Source: Thiomicrospira pelophila DSM 1534
GTDB lineage: Bacteria > Pseudomonadota > Gammaproteobacteria > Thiomicrospirales > Thiomicrospiraceae
Assembly (NCBI RefSeq): GCF_000711195.1
Contig: NZ_JOMR01000001.1
Span: forward strand, 1,860,001 to 1,924,000
DNA length: 64,000 bases
Direction of reading: 5' to 3'
This document shows positions 246 through 47,432 of the stretch, piece after piece (the first letter of the stretch is position 1; the number at the start of each line of letters is the position of its first letter). A model generated the notes under the pieces. That model did no database searches and had not been told where the DNA came from. It was given only the letters and a program-made list of their open reading frames with translations. The translations under genes and the position numbers were made by a program.

Positions 246-3200
246 TTATAACAACACACGTTCAATTCCATCATCTTCTAACTTGGCAATAAAGTCTTTT
301 TTCCAGCTCTTACCCAATAAATTATTCGCCATCTCTACCACGATATAATCGGTTTTTAGGCCAGTTTCATCCTGATAGCGGTTTAATCCTTGTTGGCAAG
401 CTGGGCAAGAAGTTAATAGCTTCACATTTCCATTAACCGCTTTATCCGAGCCTGTTAAGTCTTTAATACCTTGCTTCAACTCCTCTTCCTTACGGAAACG
501 TAATTGGTTAGCAATGTCAGGGCGAGAGGTTGCCAAAGTTCCCGCTTCACTGCAGCAGCGATCATTTAATGGTACGTCAATACCAGTCAAAGTGCTTGCT
601 ACTTTAGCCGAGTCATATTTTTTCATTGGATCATGACATGGCTCGTGATACATATATTGCACCCCTTCTACACCTTGCATTTTCACACCTTTTTCCATCA
701 GGAACTCATGAATATCTAGTAAACGACAACCTGGGAAAATCTGTTCAAATTCATATTTCAACAACTGATCCATACATGTCCCGCATGACACCAACACGGT
801 TTTAATATCTAGATAATTTAAGGTGTTAGCTACGCGATGGAACAGGGCTCGATTTTCAGTCGTAATTTGCGCACCTTTAGCCGCTTGACCCGCCGCCGTT
901 TGTGGATAACCGCAACACAAGTAACCTGGAGGCAAAATCGTTTGCACACCAGTTTCATACAGCATCGTTAAGGTCGCCATACTGATGTCACTGAATAAAC
1001 GCTCAGAGCCACAGCCCGGGAAATAAAACACGGCTTCGGTTTCCTCAGAGGTTTTAACCGGATCACGTAAAATCGGCACAATCGTTCGATCCTCAAGTGA
1101 AAGCAACGCGCGCATAGTCGGCTGATTTGGCCCTATATCTAAGGGTTTACGCACAAAGTGAATAACTTGCTGTGTCACCGGTGTTTGCCCGGTAGAACTC
1201 GCTGGCAATTGATCCTTGCGGCCAAGCAACCCTGTCCATTTAGCCAAACGATGACCAAGTCGTTGACCGACTGCCCCCCAGCCCAATAAAGTGGTGCGTA
1301 AAAACTTCACCAGGCCTGGCTGTCCAGTATTTAAGTAGAACAAGGCAGCCTTTGTGCCTATGCTCGATTGTTTTTGCCCCATATCAGTCAAGATCTTGCG
1401 CATACGTATGGATACATCACCAAAGTCAATATCAACTGGGCAAGGTGCTTCACATTTATGACAAGTGGTGCAATGGTCTGCGACATCGTTCATCGCATCA
1501 AAATGATGCAATGAAATGCCACGTCGCGTTTGTTCTTCGTATAAGAAGGCTTCAATAACTTGACCGGTTGCCAAAATTTTATTACGCGGTGAATAGAGTA
1601 GATTCGCACGCGGAATATGGGTTTGGCATACAGGCTTACATTTTCCGCAACGCAAACAATCTTTAATATCATTGTTAAGCTGATCGAGTTCACTGGCTTC
1701 TAAAATCAGCGCTTCTTGCTTAACTAGAGATAAAGAAGGCGTATAAGCATTGTGCAAACCAGAACCCGGCATCAGTTTGCCTTTGTTAAAGTGACCGTTC
1801 GGGTCAACTTTATTTTTATAGTCCACAAACGCCTGAATTTTTTCCGATGACAAAAACTCGATTTTTGTTAAACCGATCCCATGCTCACCTGAAATAACGC
1901 CACCTAAATCAGTGGCTAGTTTCATCACGCGCTCTACTACACGATCGGCCAACTGAATCATCTGATAATTGTTTGAGTGCACAGGGATATTGGTGTGGAT
2001 ATTGCCATCCCCTGCGTGCATGTGTAATGCCACAAACAAACGTGCGTTACGTAATTCAAAATGCAGTTCTTTCAAACGACCCATGACCGCTTCAAAGTCA
2101 TGACCCATAAAGGTTTGCTGTAAAAACTCAAGTACTTCTTGACGGTAAGAGATTACTAAGTCACGACGTAAAATCAAGTTAACTAAAGTATCGTTATCAC
2201 GCATTTGAGTGCGTGCACTTTCATCCAAAAAGTCGACTAAGTTGGCAGCCGGCTCATCTAGTGAGTTCAACAACATCGTCCAACGGTGTTTGACCTTTTC
2301 AAGATGTTGAAGTGTCGCCTGTACTTTTGAATTAAAGTAGTCAGCTGGTCCACCTTGACTGTCTTCAAAATCATCTTCCAAGGTATACTCAGGAATATCG
2401 CCTTCAAAGTACGCGCTTAAACTGTCGATAATATCAATTTTATTTTGAATCGACATTTCGATGTTTATACGTTCGATACCTTCGTTGTAGTCATTCAAGC
2501 GTGGCAATGGAATAACCACGTCTTCATTTACCTTAAAGGCATTCGTATGCGCTGAAATGGCAGCGGTACGTGAACGATCCGCCCAGAAACGTTTGCGTGC
2601 TTCAGCACTGACGGCGACAAAACCTTCTGCATTACGTTTGTTTGCCAATTCAACAATCTCTTGGCAAGTTTTCGCTACCTCAAAGCCATTTTCACCAGCA
2701 ATATCGCCGATTAGAATCATTTTTGGTAACTCACGACGTTTAGCTTTCGTGTTGTATTTAACGGCCCTAACATATCGCTCATCTAAGTGCTCTAAACCGG
2801 CCAGCAGAATACCTTGTGCTTTTTTACTTTCAATAAAGTCCGTAATTTCGACAATCGCTGGTACCGCCAAACTCAAATCAGTGCCAAAAAACTCTAAGCA
2901 AACCGTTCGTATATGTTCTGGCATGCGATGCAAGATAAAGCGCGCAGAGGTAATTAAGCCATCACAGCCTTCTTTTTGCACACCTGGCAAACCGCTCAAG
3001 AACTTATCGGTAACGTCTTTTCCTAAACCAGCTTGGCGGAAAGCCGTACCGGGTATATTTAGAGTTTCGACCTCAGCCATTGGGGTTGTGCCATCACGTT
3101 CGTAACGATGAATTTCAAATGTAACCATCGCCTGATCTTGGAGCTTTCCAAGATTATGATTAACGCGCACTACTTCCAACCAGCTCGCATCTGGCATCAC

Positions 3201-4106
3201 CATTTTCCATGATGCCAAGTTGTCTAAAGTTGTTCCCCACAAGACGGCTTTTTTGCCGCCCGCATTCATCGAAATGTTTCCGCCAATCGTTGAGGCGTCA
3301 TGAGATGTTGGGTCCACTGCAAACACTAGGTCATTGCGCTCTGCTAATTCTGTCACACGTTTAGTTACCACCCCAGCACCGGTCCGAACAGTAGGGACTT
3401 TAACCCCCACACCCGGCAACTCAATTGGTTCAACCATACCAAGGAACTCAAGTTTCTCGGTATTAATAACTGCGGTATTAGCATGCAATGGAATTGCGCC
3501 GCCGGTATAACCTGTGCCACCCCCACGTGGAATGATGACCAATCCAAGTTCAATGCAAGCGGCGACGATATCGGCCACCTCTTGCTCTGTGTCTGGACTA
3601 ATCACCACCAATGGAAGCTCCACACGCCAGTCAGTCGCATCCGTGGCATGAGATACCCTTGCTAAACCACCAAAGTCCGTATTGTCAGCACGTGTGATTT
3701 TTTTTAAGCGTTTACTTACTTTTTGACGCAAAGTAACTTGCTGAGGGAACCAAGCTTCAAAATCTGTTACCGCTTTTTTTACTGAGTTCAGTAATGATTC
3801 AGCCAGTTGATTATCATTTAAGCGAGCCTCGACCTGGGCTAATCGATGATGCAAAGCATCAATCAAACCAGCGCGACGCTTGGCATTTTCTAATAGATCA
3901 TCCTGAATATATGGATTACGCGATACAACCCACATATCCCCCAGAACTTCAAACAACATTTGTGCAGAACGCCCTGTATTACGAGTTTCACGCAATTGTT
4001 CGATCGACTGCCAACCCGCTTCGCCTAAAAAACGTAAGACGATTTCTCGATCTGAAAAAGAGGTGTAATTGTATGGAATCTCGCGAATGCGTTTTGTCGC
4101 TGTCAT
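246..4106 (-). CDS. DUF3683-type FAD-linked oxidase fused to Fe-S/CCG oxidoreductase (D-lactate or 2-hydroxyacid dehydrogenase family)
   Basis: A 1286-residue protein. The N-terminus ([16 protein letters not shown]) matches the DUF3683 extension. A PCMH-type FAD-binding domain follows, with [12 protein letters not shown] near residue 193. The C-terminal FAD oxidase part has [14 protein letters not shown] and [13 protein letters not shown]. Two ferredoxin motifs follow, [11 protein letters not shown] and [11 protein letters not shown]. The CCG-type cysteine-rich domain has [25 protein letters not shown] and CCSEAGT. The family oxidises D-lactate or related 2-hydroxyacids and passes electrons to the quinone pool or a cytochrome; the substrate cannot be read from sequence. 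It is longer than E. coli YdiJ (about 1018 residues) because of the DUF3683 part. It carries one palindrome copy at 1310-1319 (PGLV frame). Confidence 0.85.
1310..1319. repeat. CCAGGCCTGG palindrome, copy 1
   Basis: Perfect 10-bp core inside the FAD/Fe-S oxidoreductase gene, read as Q-P-G-L-V-K on the minus strand (PGLV frame). Context is CACCAGGCCTGGCTG. Confidence 0.95.
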
Positions 4107-38868: not shown

Positions 38869-41592
38869 TTAATCCAACTTGCCGCAACACTGTTTATATT
38901 TCTTGCCCGAACCACAAGGACATGGATCATTACGTCCCACTTTTGGTACATCTCTGCGGAAGGTGTTCGGATCTTTCACTTCCCCTTCTGCGGATGTGTT
39001 CGAAGATTTACGGTCCGCATCTGGATGGGTGGCTTGTAGCTTTTGTTGTGCTTCTTCTTTTTGCTGAGATTCAAACTTCGCCACATCTTCCTGACTTTGT
39101 AACTGAACCCAAGACAACATCTTAACCGTTTCACGCTTAACTTCACTTAAGAAAATCTGGAACAATAAGGCCGATTCGCGGCGATATTCTTGAAACGGGT
39201 CCTTTTGGGCGAAGCCACGTAAATGTATACCTCGACGCAAATAGTCCATCTCGGCTAAATGCTCACGCCAGAGCTTATCAATGTTGCGTAGTAATACTTC
39301 TTTTTCGAAATGCCCTAGTGTTTTTTCATCCACTACTGCCATTTTTTGATTATAAGCGTCTACAACTGCCGCGACAATTTTGTCGCGTAACGGCTCTTCA
39401 TACAAAGACTTATCTTCATCGAGCCAAGCCTGGACTGGCACCGTTACACCAAACTCTTCGTGCAATGCCGTTTCTAACTCTGGAACCCGCCATTGCTCAT
39501 CTAAACTGCCCGGCATGATATATTGGTCAATCACATCATTTACTACATCATTTCGCATTAACTCAATCGTTTCACGAACTTCTTCGCTTTCCATCAGTTC
39601 ATTACGTTGCTGATAAACTACCTTACGTTGTTCATTGGCAATATCGTCAAATTTCAATAAGTTCGCTCGTTCATCCTGATGCAAACGTTCGACCTGCTTC
39701 TGAGCGCGTTCAATCGACTTACTCACCATTGGATGCTCAATCGCTTCGCCTTCCTGCATGCCTAAACGGCGCATCATGTTTTTAACACGCTCCGATGCAA
39801 AACGACGCATCAAATCATCATCTAATGATAAATAAAAACGTGTCGCGCCTGGGTCACCCTGACGACCTGAACGACCACGCAACTGATTATCTATTCGACG
39901 CGATTCATGACGCTCAGAACCGATAACCTTTAAGCCACCTAAGTCTAGCACCTGCTGATGGCGTGCTTGCCAATCCGCTTTAACCTTGGTTATCTGATCG
40001 GCTGTCGCTTGCTCACCTAGCTCTTCAATCTGTGCATCAAGATTACCACCCAACACAATATCGGTACCACGACCAGCCATATTGGTGGCGATTGTTACGG
40101 CGTTTGGCATCCCGGCATTAGCAATAATATGTGCTTCTCGCTCATGTTGTTTCGCATTCAAAACTTCATGCTTAATTCCAGCACGCGTGAATAAAGACGA
40201 TAACATTTCAGACGATTCAATCGAAGCTGTCCCTACTAAAATTGGCTGACCCGTTGTATGAGTTTGTTTGACATCTTCAACTAATGCGTTAAATTTGCTT
40301 TGCATGTCGAGAAACACTAAGTCCGTCAAATCTTGACGCGCGGGTACCTTATTTGGGGGAATAACCACCACTTCCAACTTATAAGTTGATAAAAACTCAC
40401 CAGCTTCAGTATCAGCTGTCCCAGTCATACCGGATAACTTGGTATATTGACGGAAATAATTTTGGAAGGTAATAGAAGCAAATGTCTGACTTTCATGCTG
40501 AATGTCTACCTTTTCTTTGGCTTCTACGGCCTGATGCAAACCCTCACCCCAACGTCGACCAATCATTTTACGGCCCGTGTGCTCATCAATGATGACCACT
40601 TCACCATTTTCTACAATATAGTCGCGGTTGCGTTCAAATAACACATTCGCCCTTAAGGCCGCATTAACATGGATCATCAAGCCAATATTGGTGGAATCGT
40701 ATAGGCTATCGTCCTCCTGTAGCAGACCAGTTTCCATCAACATATCTTCAATTTTTTCATGACCTTCTTCGGTCAAAAATACCTGACGTGCTTTTTCATC
40801 AATCGTATAGTCGCCGGTAGTGGTTTTTTCCACTGGGTCTTCTTCACCCTGTTCTAAATGCGCAATTAAAGGATTAATTTTGTGATAAATCTCCGCTTTA
40901 TTATCAGTCGGCCCTGAAATAATCAGCGGCGTACGCGCTTCATCAATTAAGATCGAATCGACCTCATCTATAATCGCAAATGATTGACCACGCATGACTT
41001 TTTCTTCTTTATAGATCGCCATGTTGTCGCGCAAATAATCAAACCCAAATTCGTTGTTCGTACCATAGGTAATATCCATCGAATAAGCTAACTGCTTCTC
41101 TTGGTGACTTTGACCACTAACGATCACACCGGTACTCAAACCCAAAAATTCAAAAAGCTGCCCCATCCATTCCGCATCACGCTTTGCTAGGTAATCGTTA
41201 ACCGTAATAACATGGACACCTGAACCGTTTAAGCCATTGAGGTAGGCCGCCAAAGTGGCCACTAACGTCTTACCTTCACCAGTACGCATTTCAGATATAC
41301 GACCGTCATGTAATGCCATACCACCAATCATCTGTACATCATAATGACGCATACCAAAAACACGCTTACCTGCTTCTCTCACCACAGCAAAGGCTTCGGG
41401 TAAAATATCATCAAGTGTTTTTCCGTCTGTCAAAGCCTGTTTAAAAGCCGCTGTTTTAGCTTGCAATGCTTCATCTGAGAGTGCCTCTAACTCTGGTTCA
41501 TAAGCATTAATCTGAGCGATGCGCTTCTGATATTGCTTTAACAACCGCTCATTGCGGCTACCGAAAATCTTTTTGAAAATATTTACGAACAT
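38869..41592 (-). CDS. secA: Preprotein translocase ATPase SecA
   Basis: A 907-residue motor of the Sec export pathway. Walker A is [13 protein letters not shown], the DEAD-like motif is [16 protein letters not shown], and [19 protein letters not shown] is diagnostic. The C-terminal zinc motif is [13 protein letters not shown]. Length matches E. coli SecA (901). No secM-like gene is upstream; instead dciA is divergent, as in Pseudomonas. It contains no palindrome copy. Confidence 0.98.
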
Positions 41593-41754: not shown

Positions 41755-42177
41755 ATGAAACACCTACTAAAAGAACCCAGTTTAACCAAGCTTTTTCAAC
41801 AGGCCGAACTTTATCAAGCATTACTTGAACTGGGCCAATCGGCTTTACCTGATAACCTAGCAGCGCATTTGGTAGGCGTGTCTATTGAACAGCAAACATT
41901 AATTTGTTTAGTAGATGGCGCAAACTGGGCGAGTAAATTGCGTTTTTTTGAGCAGTCATTATTACATCATTACGACCAGAACCTACCTCACCTGAAACTT
42001 AATCAAATTCATTTTAAGATCATGGTTGATTCCAACGAGCAGGTGCGGATTAAAAGATCCGCGAATCGACCCGATGCCGAGGCGGCTGAACAAATGAAAA
42101 AGCTCAGTAAAAATCTTTCTCCTAATCTGGCGGAAGCGTTAACCAAACTGAGTCAACGCGCCGAACCTCATGAATGA
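41755..42177 (+). CDS. dciA: DciA-family helicase loader (DUF721)
   Basis: A 140-residue protein between secA and lpxC, the position of dciA in gammaproteobacteria. The DUF721 domain covers about residues 10-110 (LLELGQSALPDNLAAHLVGVSIEQQTLICLVDGANWASKLRFFEQSLL in outline), followed by a charged tail. DciA recruits or loads the replicative helicase DnaB in bacteria that lack DnaC. It is divergent from secA by 162 nt and convergent with lpxC. Confidence 0.85.
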   Translation: MKHLLKEPSLTKLFQQAELYQALLELGQSALPDNLAAHLVGVSIEQQTLICLVDGANWASKLRFFEQSLLHHYDQNLPHLKLNQIHFKIMVDSNEQVRIKRSANRPDAEAAEQMKKLSKNLSPNLAEALTKLSQRAEPHE

Positions 42178-43104: not shown

Positions 43105-43150
43105 GCTCTTTCTCTATCTTATTAAATTCTATTTATCCACAACGGACACA

Positions 43151-44419: not shown

Positions 44420-45124
44420 TTAAAGCATTTGTGACGAAGGTGAGGACACCTTTACCGCCACGCCGTTGCTGTATCTCAAATCAAAGCTTTGTGCAGATTC
44501 TACCAGTTTTTTTGAAAGCATAGGATAAGCCTTTACAAAACGTGGCAACTTGGTGGCCCAATTAGCAGAATCCACAATTAATTCTTGACCAGAGTCAAAC
44601 TTTAGTCGGAATACACCATCCACCTGTTGGGACAAACTCACTACCTGCCAATTGAGGGCCGCTAATTTTTCTTCAAAAGTCTCTAAAACAGCTAATAAGG
44701 CGGGCGCTTGTAGCCGATCACCTTGCAAATGAATGAGGTGTTCAAAACCCTGCTGTGAAACCGGACGGAAAATCTCACCATCCTGACTAATCAAATCTTT
44801 ATCACCCCAGCGAGCAATCGGATTATGTTCGTCAATGCTGATTTCCAAATAACCCGGCCAGCTGCGTTTGATAGTGGCATTTTCAATCCAATTAACCTGC
44901 TCCAACGAATGTTTAAGTTCAGTTAAATCGACCTCCCAAAAAGACTGGGACAAATAAGGAACCAAGGCTTCATCCACATCATCAAAACGGACATGTTGTA
45001 AGGAATCGACAATGCTATAAGAAAGATAATCTACTCCGCGAGACTGAGAAAGCAACGAAAAAGCCAGCGCACTTAACGCGAGCATAATGGCTGCAATACT
45101 TACGCCCCACTTGAGTTTTCGCAA
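44420..45124 (-). CDS. ftsQ: Cell division protein FtsQ
   Basis: A 234-residue bitopic protein from a TTG start, with AGAGGG about 9 nt upstream. It has one transmembrane helix (VSIAAIMLALSALAFSLLS, residues ~8-27). The POTRA domain begins near VRFDDVDEALVPYLSQSFWEVDL, and the FtsQ/DivIB domain has NWIENATIKRSWPGYLEISIDEHNPIARWG. FtsQ with FtsB and FtsL is a central divisome complex. It lies between ddl (11 nt) and ftsA, the normal order. Confidence 0.93.
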   Translation of the reverse strand: MRKLKWGVSIAAIMLALSALAFSLLSQSRGVDYLSYSIVDSLQHVRFDDVDEALVPYLSQSFWEVDLTELKHSLEQVNWIENATIKRSWPGYLEISIDEHNPIARWGDKDLISQDGEIFRPVSQQGFEHLIHLQGDRLQAPALLAVLETFEEKLAALNWQVVSLSQQVDGVFRLKFDSGQELIVDSANWATKLPRFVKAYPMLSKKLVESAQSFDLRYSNGVAVKVSSPSSQML

Positions 45125-45135
45125 AGTCCATCCCT

Positions 45136-46044
45136 CTAGTTTAATGAAGTTTTCAAAATCTCAACGACCAGCTCTTCAAAGCTTAAGCCCATCACTTTGG
45201 CGGCTTTTGGCACTAGACTGTGATCGGTCATGCCCGGTGCCGTGTTTAACTCAATCAACCAGGCCTGGTGGTTATCATCCACCAGTAAATCCATGCGCCC
45301 CCAGCCTTTCGCGCCGATAACATCAAAACCTCGAAGTACGAGCTGATCGATTTGAGCCTGAAGATCTTGGCTAAGCTCACAAGGACAAATATATTGAGTG
45401 TCGTTAGACTGATACTTGGCCGAATAATCATAAAAATCATGAGTTGTTTTTAACTCAATAGTCGGCAGAACACGCCCATTCAAAACCCCGACGGTAAATT
45501 CCCGACCAGTCACCCATTGTTCGATTAATACTTCGCTATCATATTCTTGCGCAAACTCTACCGCTTGCTGCAATTCCTCTAAGCTGTATACCTTGCGCAT
45601 ACCAATACTGGAACCTTCATGACAAGGCTTCACAATTAATGGAAAGGTTAAGCTAAAGTTTTCCAAGTCCAATGGCTGAAATTGGCTAACCTGAACAAAA
45701 TCAGGAGTCGACAGGCCCGCACCACGCCACAACCACTTTGTTCGCAACTTATCCATTGCCAAAGCCGACGCCGCCATTTGACTACCGGTAAACGGCATAC
45801 CCAATGACTGCAAAATTGCTTGAACCTGGCCATCCTCACCCCAGCGACCATGTAAAGCAATAAAAGCGCGATCATAAGTTTGACTGATTTCAACTAATTG
45901 TTCGAGTCGAGTCACATCTAAACCATACGCATCTATTCCAGCACTCTTTAGTGCTTGGGTTATGGCTTGACCGCTACGCAAAGAAACGTCTCGTTCAGCC
46001 GCTATGCCGCCCATTAAAACAGCTACTCGACCAAACGAACTCAT
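45136..46044 (-). CDS. ddl: D-alanine-D-alanine ligase
   Basis: 302 residues from ATG 46042-46044 (MSSFGRVAVLMGG). The start overlaps the murC stop (ATGA), with GGAAGG 6 nt upstream, which decides this start. ATP-grasp motifs include PLIVKPCHEGSSIGM, EFTVGVLNG and LIELNTAPGMTDHSLVPKAA. It makes D-Ala-D-Ala for peptidoglycan. Palindrome copy 12 encodes D-N-H-Q-A-W-L-I-E-L, directly before the conserved E-L-N-T-A-P-G metal site. Confidence 0.96.
   Translation of the reverse strand: MSSFGRVAVLMGGIAAERDVSLRSGQAITQALKSAGIDAYGLDVTRLEQLVEISQTYDRAFIALHGRWGEDGQVQAILQSLGMPFTGSQMAASALAMDKLRTKWLWRGAGLSTPDFVQVSQFQPLDLENFSLTFPLIVKPCHEGSSIGMRKVYSLEELQQAVEFAQEYDSEVLIEQWVTGREFTVGVLNGRVLPTIELKTTHDFYDYSAKYQSNDTQYICPCELSQDLQAQIDQLVLRGFDVIGAKGWGRMDLLVDDNHQAWLIELNTAPGMTDHSLVPKAAKVMGLSFEELVVEILKTSLN
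45259..45268. repeat. CCAGGCCTGG palindrome, copy 12
   Basis: Perfect ACCAGGCCTGGT in ddl, read N-H-Q-A-W-L on the minus strand. Confidence 0.96.
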
Positions 46045-47432
46045 AACACACCTTCCTGTTCTTGCCATTGTTTCGCCCAGGCACCAATATCGCCTGCACC
46101 CATCATTAACACCACATCATTCGGTTGTAATAATTCGGACGCGAGGCTTTGTAATTCATCAAATCCATCCACCAACACCAAGTTTTGAGCACCGCGCAAA
46201 CGCATAGCTTGGATCAAGGCTTTAGAATCAAACGCGGTTAAAGGCGTTTCGCCAGCCGCATACACCTGAGTTAGAATCACTAAATCAGCGTGCATTAAAG
46301 CGTGTACAAATTCTTCAAATAAATCACGAGTTCGACTGTATCTATGCGGCTGAAACACCAACACTAAACGCTGATCAGGAAAGGCCGCTCTCGCGGTAGA
46401 TAAAGTGGCATTTAGTTCGGTTGGGTGATGGCCATAGTCATCCACTAGGGTTACATCATGATCACCAATTAGCCGATTCGGATAAACCTCGAATCGACGA
46501 CCAACTCCAGCAAATGCCATCAAAGCTTCGTTGATGGCGCAAGGTTTGACCCCCAACTCCAACGCAACTGTAATGGCGGCCAGAGCATTTTGAACATTAT
46601 GTCGACCCGGGATATTTAAAGTAACACTGAACTCTGATCCATCTTTTAAACGCACACCAAACTGGCTTTGTAGACCGTGTGTTTGTACATTTACTGCGCG
46701 AACATCGGCCTGTTCATCAAATCCATAGGTACGAGTTTTACGCAGGACATCTGGAAGCAACTTTTTAATATTCTCATCATCCAGACACAACACGGCCAAA
46801 CCATAAAACGGCAAACGGTTTATAAATTCATTATAAGTACTAACTAGACGTGAAAAATCACCTTGGTAGGTTTCCATGTGATCCATGTCGATATTGGTTA
46901 TCACGGACATCATTGGGGTCAAATGTAGAAAAGAAGCATCCGACTCGTCCGCTTCGGCTACTAAATAACGCCCAGAGCCCAAACGCGCATTGGTGCCCAC
47001 TTGGTTCAGTTTACCGCCAATAACAAAAGTGGGATCCAAACCGCCATGGGTTAAAATCGCGGCGGTTAAGCTAGTAGTCGTTGTTTTACCATGAGTACCC
47101 GCAATCGCAATGCCAAATCGCATACGCATCAATTCAGCCAGCATTTCAGCACGAGGAATCACCGGAATACGTTCTGCCTTAGCCCAAACAACCTCCGGAT
47201 TATCCGCACGAATCGCACTCGACACCACCAGCACATCGGCCGTCTTCATTAATTCAGGATCGTGCCCAACTTGAACTCGGGCACCTAGACTTTCTAAACG
47301 GGTTACAGTCTGATTACGTTTGACGTCAGACCCTGATACTTGGAAGTCGAGATTTAGACAAACTTCGGCAATCCCGGCCATGCCGACACCACCGATGCCA
47401 ACAAAGTGGATTTGTTTTACTTGTTCTTTCAT
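46041..47432 (-). CDS. murC: UDP-N-acetylmuramate-L-alanine ligase
   Basis: A 463-residue Mur ligase adding L-Ala to UDP-MurNAc. The N-terminal Rossmann part is HFVGIGGVGMAGIAEV, ATP binding is IAGTHGKTTTTSLTA, and the substrate segment is EADESDASFLHL. Length is close to E. coli MurC (491). It starts the dcw part of the window; murG and murB are not here. ddl follows with an ATGA overlap. Confidence 0.97.
   Translation of the reverse strand: MKEQVKQIHFVGIGGVGMAGIAEVCLNLDFQVSGSDVKRNQTVTRLESLGARVQVGHDPELMKTADVLVVSSAIRADNPEVVWAKAERIPVIPRAEMLAELMRMRFGIAIAGTHGKTTTTSLTAAILTHGGLDPTFVIGGKLNQVGTNARLGSGRYLVAEADESDASFLHLTPMMSVITNIDMDHMETYQGDFSRLVSTYNEFINRLPFYGLAVLCLDDENIKKLLPDVLRKTRTYGFDEQADVRAVNVQTHGLQSQFGVRLKDGSEFSVTLNIPGRHNVQNALAAITVALELGVKPCAINEALMAFAGVGRRFEVYPNRLIGDHDVTLVDDYGHHPTELNATLSTARAAFPDQRLVLVFQPHRYSRTRDLFEEFVHALMHADLVILTQVYAAGETPLTAFDSKALIQAMRLRGAQNLVLVDGFDELQSLASELLQPNDVVLMMGAGDIGAWAKQWQEQEGVL

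Follow-up and report, generated by a model that had tools for sequence, protein, structure and literature searches.

In Escherichia coli, the canonical order of the dcw cluster is mraZ-rsmH-ftsL-ftsI-murE-murF-mraY-murD-ftsW-murG-murC-ddlB-ftsQ-ftsA-ftsZ-lpxC. Textbooks present the ftsA-ftsZ pair at the cluster tail as constant among gammaproteobacteria, and a fixed FtsZ:FtsA ratio is often said to depend on the two genes being close together. E. coli MraZ represses the genes from mraZ to murC, and ftsZ lies outside this unit (PMC7761207). In the four-gene cluster mraZ-mraW-MG_223-ftsZ of Mycoplasma genitalium, which has no wall genes, ftsZ stands close behind mraZ and rsmH (mraW); repression by MraZ has been demonstrated there, and the loss of MraZ raises FtsZ 25-fold (PMC8475190). 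The dcw cluster of the Neisseriaceae is split without obvious effect on cell shape, and a murC-ddl-ftsQ-ftsA-ftsZ sub-cluster has been retained (PMC9395523).

The cluster of Thiomicrospira pelophila DSM 1534 resembles that of E. coli in its genes, their strand, their relative order except for ftsZ, and the kind of promoter and MraZ boxes that precede mraZ. It differs in two respects: ftsZ is the third gene, not the one after ftsA, throughout the order that comprises Thiomicrospira, Hydrogenovibrio, Thiomicrorhabdus and Sulfurivirga (hereafter the order), and a break between murG and murC divides the cluster in Thiomicrospira and the genera closest to it. The place of ftsZ close behind mraZ and rsmH recalls M. 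genitalium, but here the closeness results from a move of ftsZ, with the remaining genes all retained. The fragmentation recalls the Neisseriaceae; ftsZ, however, is gone from the sub-cluster that they retain. In the open-access literature we have found no earlier report of an rsmH-ftsZ-ftsL order for Thiomicrospira or its relatives.

Position of ftsZ in Thiomicrospira pelophila

The window, i.e., the whole stretch of 64,000 nt analysed here, holds the rear half of the dcw cluster (Table 1). A preliminary description of this stretch had stated that ftsZ is absent from a 46-nt gap between ftsA and lpxC, that the rest of the cluster (murC-ddl-ftsQ-ftsA, lpxC-secA) is intact, and that the cluster is cut off upstream of murC. 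The gap is exact, and it contains no remnant of ftsZ. The genes murC, ddl, ftsQ and secA are intact and keep their usual order, and the upstream side of murC is occupied by a small ORF and sufS, not by murG. Between lpxC and secA lies dciA, in convergent orientation; the corresponding site in E. coli holds secM, and several relatives have dciA in this placement too.

Table 1 Features of the two halves of the dcw cluster in Thiomicrospira pelophila. Plain positions are those of the window; C1 and L002 positions are marked.
Feature	Position	Strand	Evidence or remark
secA	38869..41592	-	NF009538, 1226 bits
dciA (DUF721)	41755..42177	+	Pfam DciA, E 3.9e-8
lpxC, 303 aa	42193..43104	-	GTG start; TIGR00325, 357.1 bits (cut-off 187.25)
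ftsA-lpxC junction	43105..43150	-	46 nt; vacated ancestral ftsZ site
ftsA, 415 aa	43151..44398	-	TIGR01174, 514.5 bits (cut-off 175.85)
ftsQ	44420..45124	-	NF008043 (FtsQ), E 1.2e-20, under the model's strict cut-off; adjoins ftsA
ddl	45136..46068	-	NF002378, 390 bits
murC	46041..47432	-	TIGR01082, 549.5 bits; first gene of the rear half
ORF, 111 aa	47636..47971		between murC and sufS; no Pfam/NCBIfam match
Promoter-like TTGACA-17-TATAGT	L002:6921-6949		upstream of mraZ; 11/12 matches, near-consensus
Four GTGG, 10-bp period (GTGG-N6)	L002:6948-6981		overlap and follow the promoter-like sequence
rsmH	L002:7446-8384
ftsZ, 401 aa	C1:536444-537649 (L002:8445-9650)		full-length; FtsZ domain match at C1:536507-536971
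ftsL	L002:9667-9999		Pfam FtsL

The genome consists of one contig of 2,108,215 bp and is 100% complete. The search of the genome for ftsZ and for duplicates that had been suggested gives one full-length ftsZ, whose domain match is the sole one in the genome, ~1.37 Mb from the window locus; there is no second copy. It lies between rsmH, from which it is separated by 60 nt, and ftsL, within the order mraZ-rsmH-ftsZ-ftsL-ftsI-murE-murF-mraY-murD-ftsW-murG (C1:535-547 kb). That is, the dcw cluster exists as two halves, one from mraZ to murG and the other, in the window, from murC to secA. Duplicates of ftsA are absent as well, the second match (C1:1625368) being weak, at only 26 bits. For annotators, this means that an ftsZ missing between ftsA and lpxC is not an ftsZ that has been lost.

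Distribution of the arrangement in the order

In 60 of the 63 sampled genomes of the order, rsmH and ftsZ could be located on a single contig; every one of these has ftsZ directly downstream of rsmH. The other three, which have no ftsZ match, are incomplete or contaminated drafts. Wherever ftsA and lpxC are both found on one contig, lpxC directly follows ftsA, and in no relative within the order is an ftsZ match seen in the usual place between them. A protein search gave the same picture (L004-L018): Thiomicrospira, a Hydrogenovibrio MAG, Thiomicrorhabdus, Sulfurivirga and Thiotrichales MAGs all show rsmH-ftsZ, and on every contig that extends far enough ftsL comes next; the betaproteobacteria in the same search show ftsA-ftsZ. 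The nearest lineage outside the order (G157) has the canonical arrangement, namely ftsA-ftsZ-lpxC (L162) and mraZ-rsmH-(gap)-ftsI (L216). Overall, ftsZ is relocated, not missing, and the arrangement is an order-wide conserved variant of the dcw cluster.

The first branches of the order (G002, G004 and G018; loci L093, L095 and L094) have a single uninterrupted cluster with ftsZ at its head and all other genes in standard order, mraZ-rsmH-ftsZ-ftsL-ftsI-murE-murF-mraY-murD-ftsW-murG-murC-ddl-ftsQ-ftsA-lpxC, then secA. The genera g1, g3, g6 and g7 share the break between murG and murC and have sufS upstream of murC. Since the early branches keep the cluster intact with ftsZ already at the head, the move of ftsZ preceded the split.

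These observations make it very probable that ftsZ changed place a single time, in the ancestor shared by the whole order; the gene now stands behind the mraZ promoter, and the division proteins are conventional. The gene would have moved from the tail (ftsA-ftsZ-lpxC) to the head (rsmH-ftsZ-ftsL) inside one intact cluster, and its departure would have left ftsA adjoining lpxC. For example, the cluster may first have been duplicated, after which the superfluous copies were lost. A later break between murG and murC, in the branch holding Thiomicrospira pelophila, would then have produced the ftsZ-less rear half seen in the window. FtsZ should still be able to use FtsA as its membrane tether. 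The change to be expected is one of expression, with ftsZ in third position downstream of the mraZ promoter and MraZ operator, and ftsA in a separate unit together with ftsQ and lpxC. As the whole order has ftsZ at the head, and ftsA is more than 1 Mb away here, adjacency of the two genes is not required.

Other gammaproteobacterial families with ftsZ at the head

A class-wide sample contributed 153 genomes from outside the order in which rsmH and ftsZ share both contig and strand. The distance between the two genes is the canonical 12–22 kb in 139 of them, less than 3 kb in nine, and split or far in five, and none falls at 3.5–12 kb. The nine short-distance genomes (L084-L092) belong to six families, which share with the order the placement of ftsZ at the cluster head, while their insertion slots differ from rsmH-ftsZ-ftsL. 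In f87 (L089, L090) the order is ftsZ-mraZ-rsmH with MraZ boxes upstream of ftsZ, in f156 and f30 it is ftsZ-rsmH, in f125 rsmH-ftsL-ftsZ-ftsI, and in f36 ftsL-ftsI-ftsZ-murE; f146 has ftsA-ftsZ before ftsI and is the exception among these families, the others keeping ftsA at the tail. Taken across lineages, the head slots are operator/mraZ, mraZ/rsmH, rsmH/ftsL, after ftsL and after ftsI. The genomes of these families are mostly small (0.9–1.9 Mb).

In the neighbour-gene tree, f87 is placed apart from the order. A 36-taxon tree rejects the two placements tried of f87 as sister to the order (p-AU 0.005 and 0.027); here a full search was followed by regrafting, and the regrafted trees were taken without a new search. 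This test replaces an earlier one on 69 rows, which was uninformative because its free quick search was suboptimal. On the other side, a single origin is possible for f125, f146, f156 and f30, all families with small genomes, as their deep branching lacks resolution. The data therefore support at least two independent moves of ftsZ to the head, and there were probably more. This recurrent placement of ftsZ at the mraZ-proximal end is the part that merits specialist attention.

Several further observations were made in the class sample. In G096, an open frame of 24,386 aa holding ftsZ turned out to be a run of N. No FtsZ match was obtained for G111 and G321 (f50), G154 and G260 (f93), G083 and G105, whose genomes are 1.4–2.1 Mb and 99–100% complete; most of them have rsmH, and they are possibly FtsZ-less lineages.

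Probable regulation of the relocated gene

Upstream of mraZ in Thiomicrospira pelophila, a promoter-like sequence is overlapped and followed by a series of GTGG boxes (Table 1). The three-box GTGG pattern occurs at this site only in the whole genome (two overlapping matches). The same type of promoter and boxes is found upstream of mraZ throughout the order, and E. coli mraZ has a box of like kind (L224:792). A simple scan of rsmH and the 60-nt gap gave no separate ftsZ promoter on that strand. Since a near-consensus promoter and MraZ-type boxes stand at the head of the cluster, ftsZ probably belongs to the MraZ unit, where it would be transcribed from the mraZ promoter and repressed by MraZ. 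Judging from this sequence arrangement, MraZ should control FtsZ directly in the order, unlike in E. coli, which makes the order a natural material for studying the role of MraZ.

More generally, we suggest, though only tentatively, that in gammaproteobacteria ftsZ has parted from ftsA on repeated, independent occasions, each time ending up at the dcw head behind an MraZ-controlled promoter, a convergent rewiring that would put the dosage of FtsZ under MraZ and uncouple it from FtsA. It can instead be argued that the relocation is irrelevant to regulation, with ftsZ having a promoter of its own, as it does elsewhere, and its shift reflecting neutral drift of gene order; the Neisseriaceae, with dcw gene order fragmenting without effect on shape (PMC9395523), are a precedent. 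We consider such drift rather unlikely. The position has been kept in 60 of 60 genomes despite the later break-up of the remaining cluster; the ftsZ genes moved in other lineages are found at the cluster head, never mid-cluster; and in f87 the gene lies just between the MraZ boxes and mraZ.

Origin of the relocated ftsZ

A native gene may have been moved, or the old ftsZ may have been deleted and a horizontally acquired one inserted behind rsmH. The second possibility draws on three points. The tubulin-domain scores of FtsZ in the order lie below those of most of the class (~150 vs 155–185 bits). In addition, a comparison of the FtsZ of Thiomicrospira pelophila with other sequences (L004-L018, L019-L083) shows that the order's protein is 3 residues shorter just before the T3 loop, with IQIGRNGLGAG in place of the IQLG..ITKGLGAG of most gammaproteobacteria, and this shortening is also present in betaproteobacteria. 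Finally, a joint clade of Thiomicrospira and betaproteobacterial FtsZ is not rejected (p-AU 0.42).

In the FtsZ tree, nevertheless, the order forms one clade whose sister is G157 (support 92/81), and the betaproteobacteria form a monophyletic group (100/100) with the order outside it. The concatenated RsmH, FtsI, MurE, MurF, MraY and FtsA likewise place G157 as sister, and no mobile-element gene is found beside ftsZ in the cluster. Because FtsZ and its neighbour genes share their sister lineage, relocation of the native gene is favoured as the most likely origin. As the order's FtsZ does not fall within the betaproteobacteria in the tree, a replacement from that source was not adopted, and we regard foreign replacement as improbable.

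Division proteins and further features of the window

The preliminary description had reasoned that FtsZ must be encoded elsewhere or that the division system is unusual. The former is borne out by the distant single copy. The latter, a system in which FtsZ is dispensable or divergent, has the decoupling of ftsZ from ftsA as its sole support and appears highly improbable. FtsZ scores 404.7 bits over the whole protein on TIGR00065 (cut-off 295.2), and in translation it keeps both the GTP-binding loop GGGTGTG (in MGGGTGTGAAP) and the conserved C-terminal peptide YLDIPAFLRRQAD; this peptide is the one that binds FtsA and ZipA. FtsA, FtsQ, FtsL and FtsI are all present. The C-terminal membrane helix that had been ascribed to FtsA is indeed kept, and is read in translation as a basic amphipathic tail, LLTRMKNWFSNSF. 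Judged by these signatures, the division proteins look ordinary and FtsZ conventional, and a loss of FtsZ is ruled out by the single intact copy.

That ftsZ was dropped or misplaced during assembly, for which the absence of so highly conserved a neighbour is the sole support, is ruled out for all practical purposes, since the ftsA-lpxC junction, like rsmH-ftsZ-ftsL, recurs in independently assembled genomes of the order, and the gap in the window is thus due neither to misassembly nor to chance.

Elsewhere in the window, positions 246–4106 encode a 1286-aa fusion of an FAD-linked oxidase with 4Fe-4S and cysteine-rich (CCG) domains, whose ends are DUF3683 and DUF3400.
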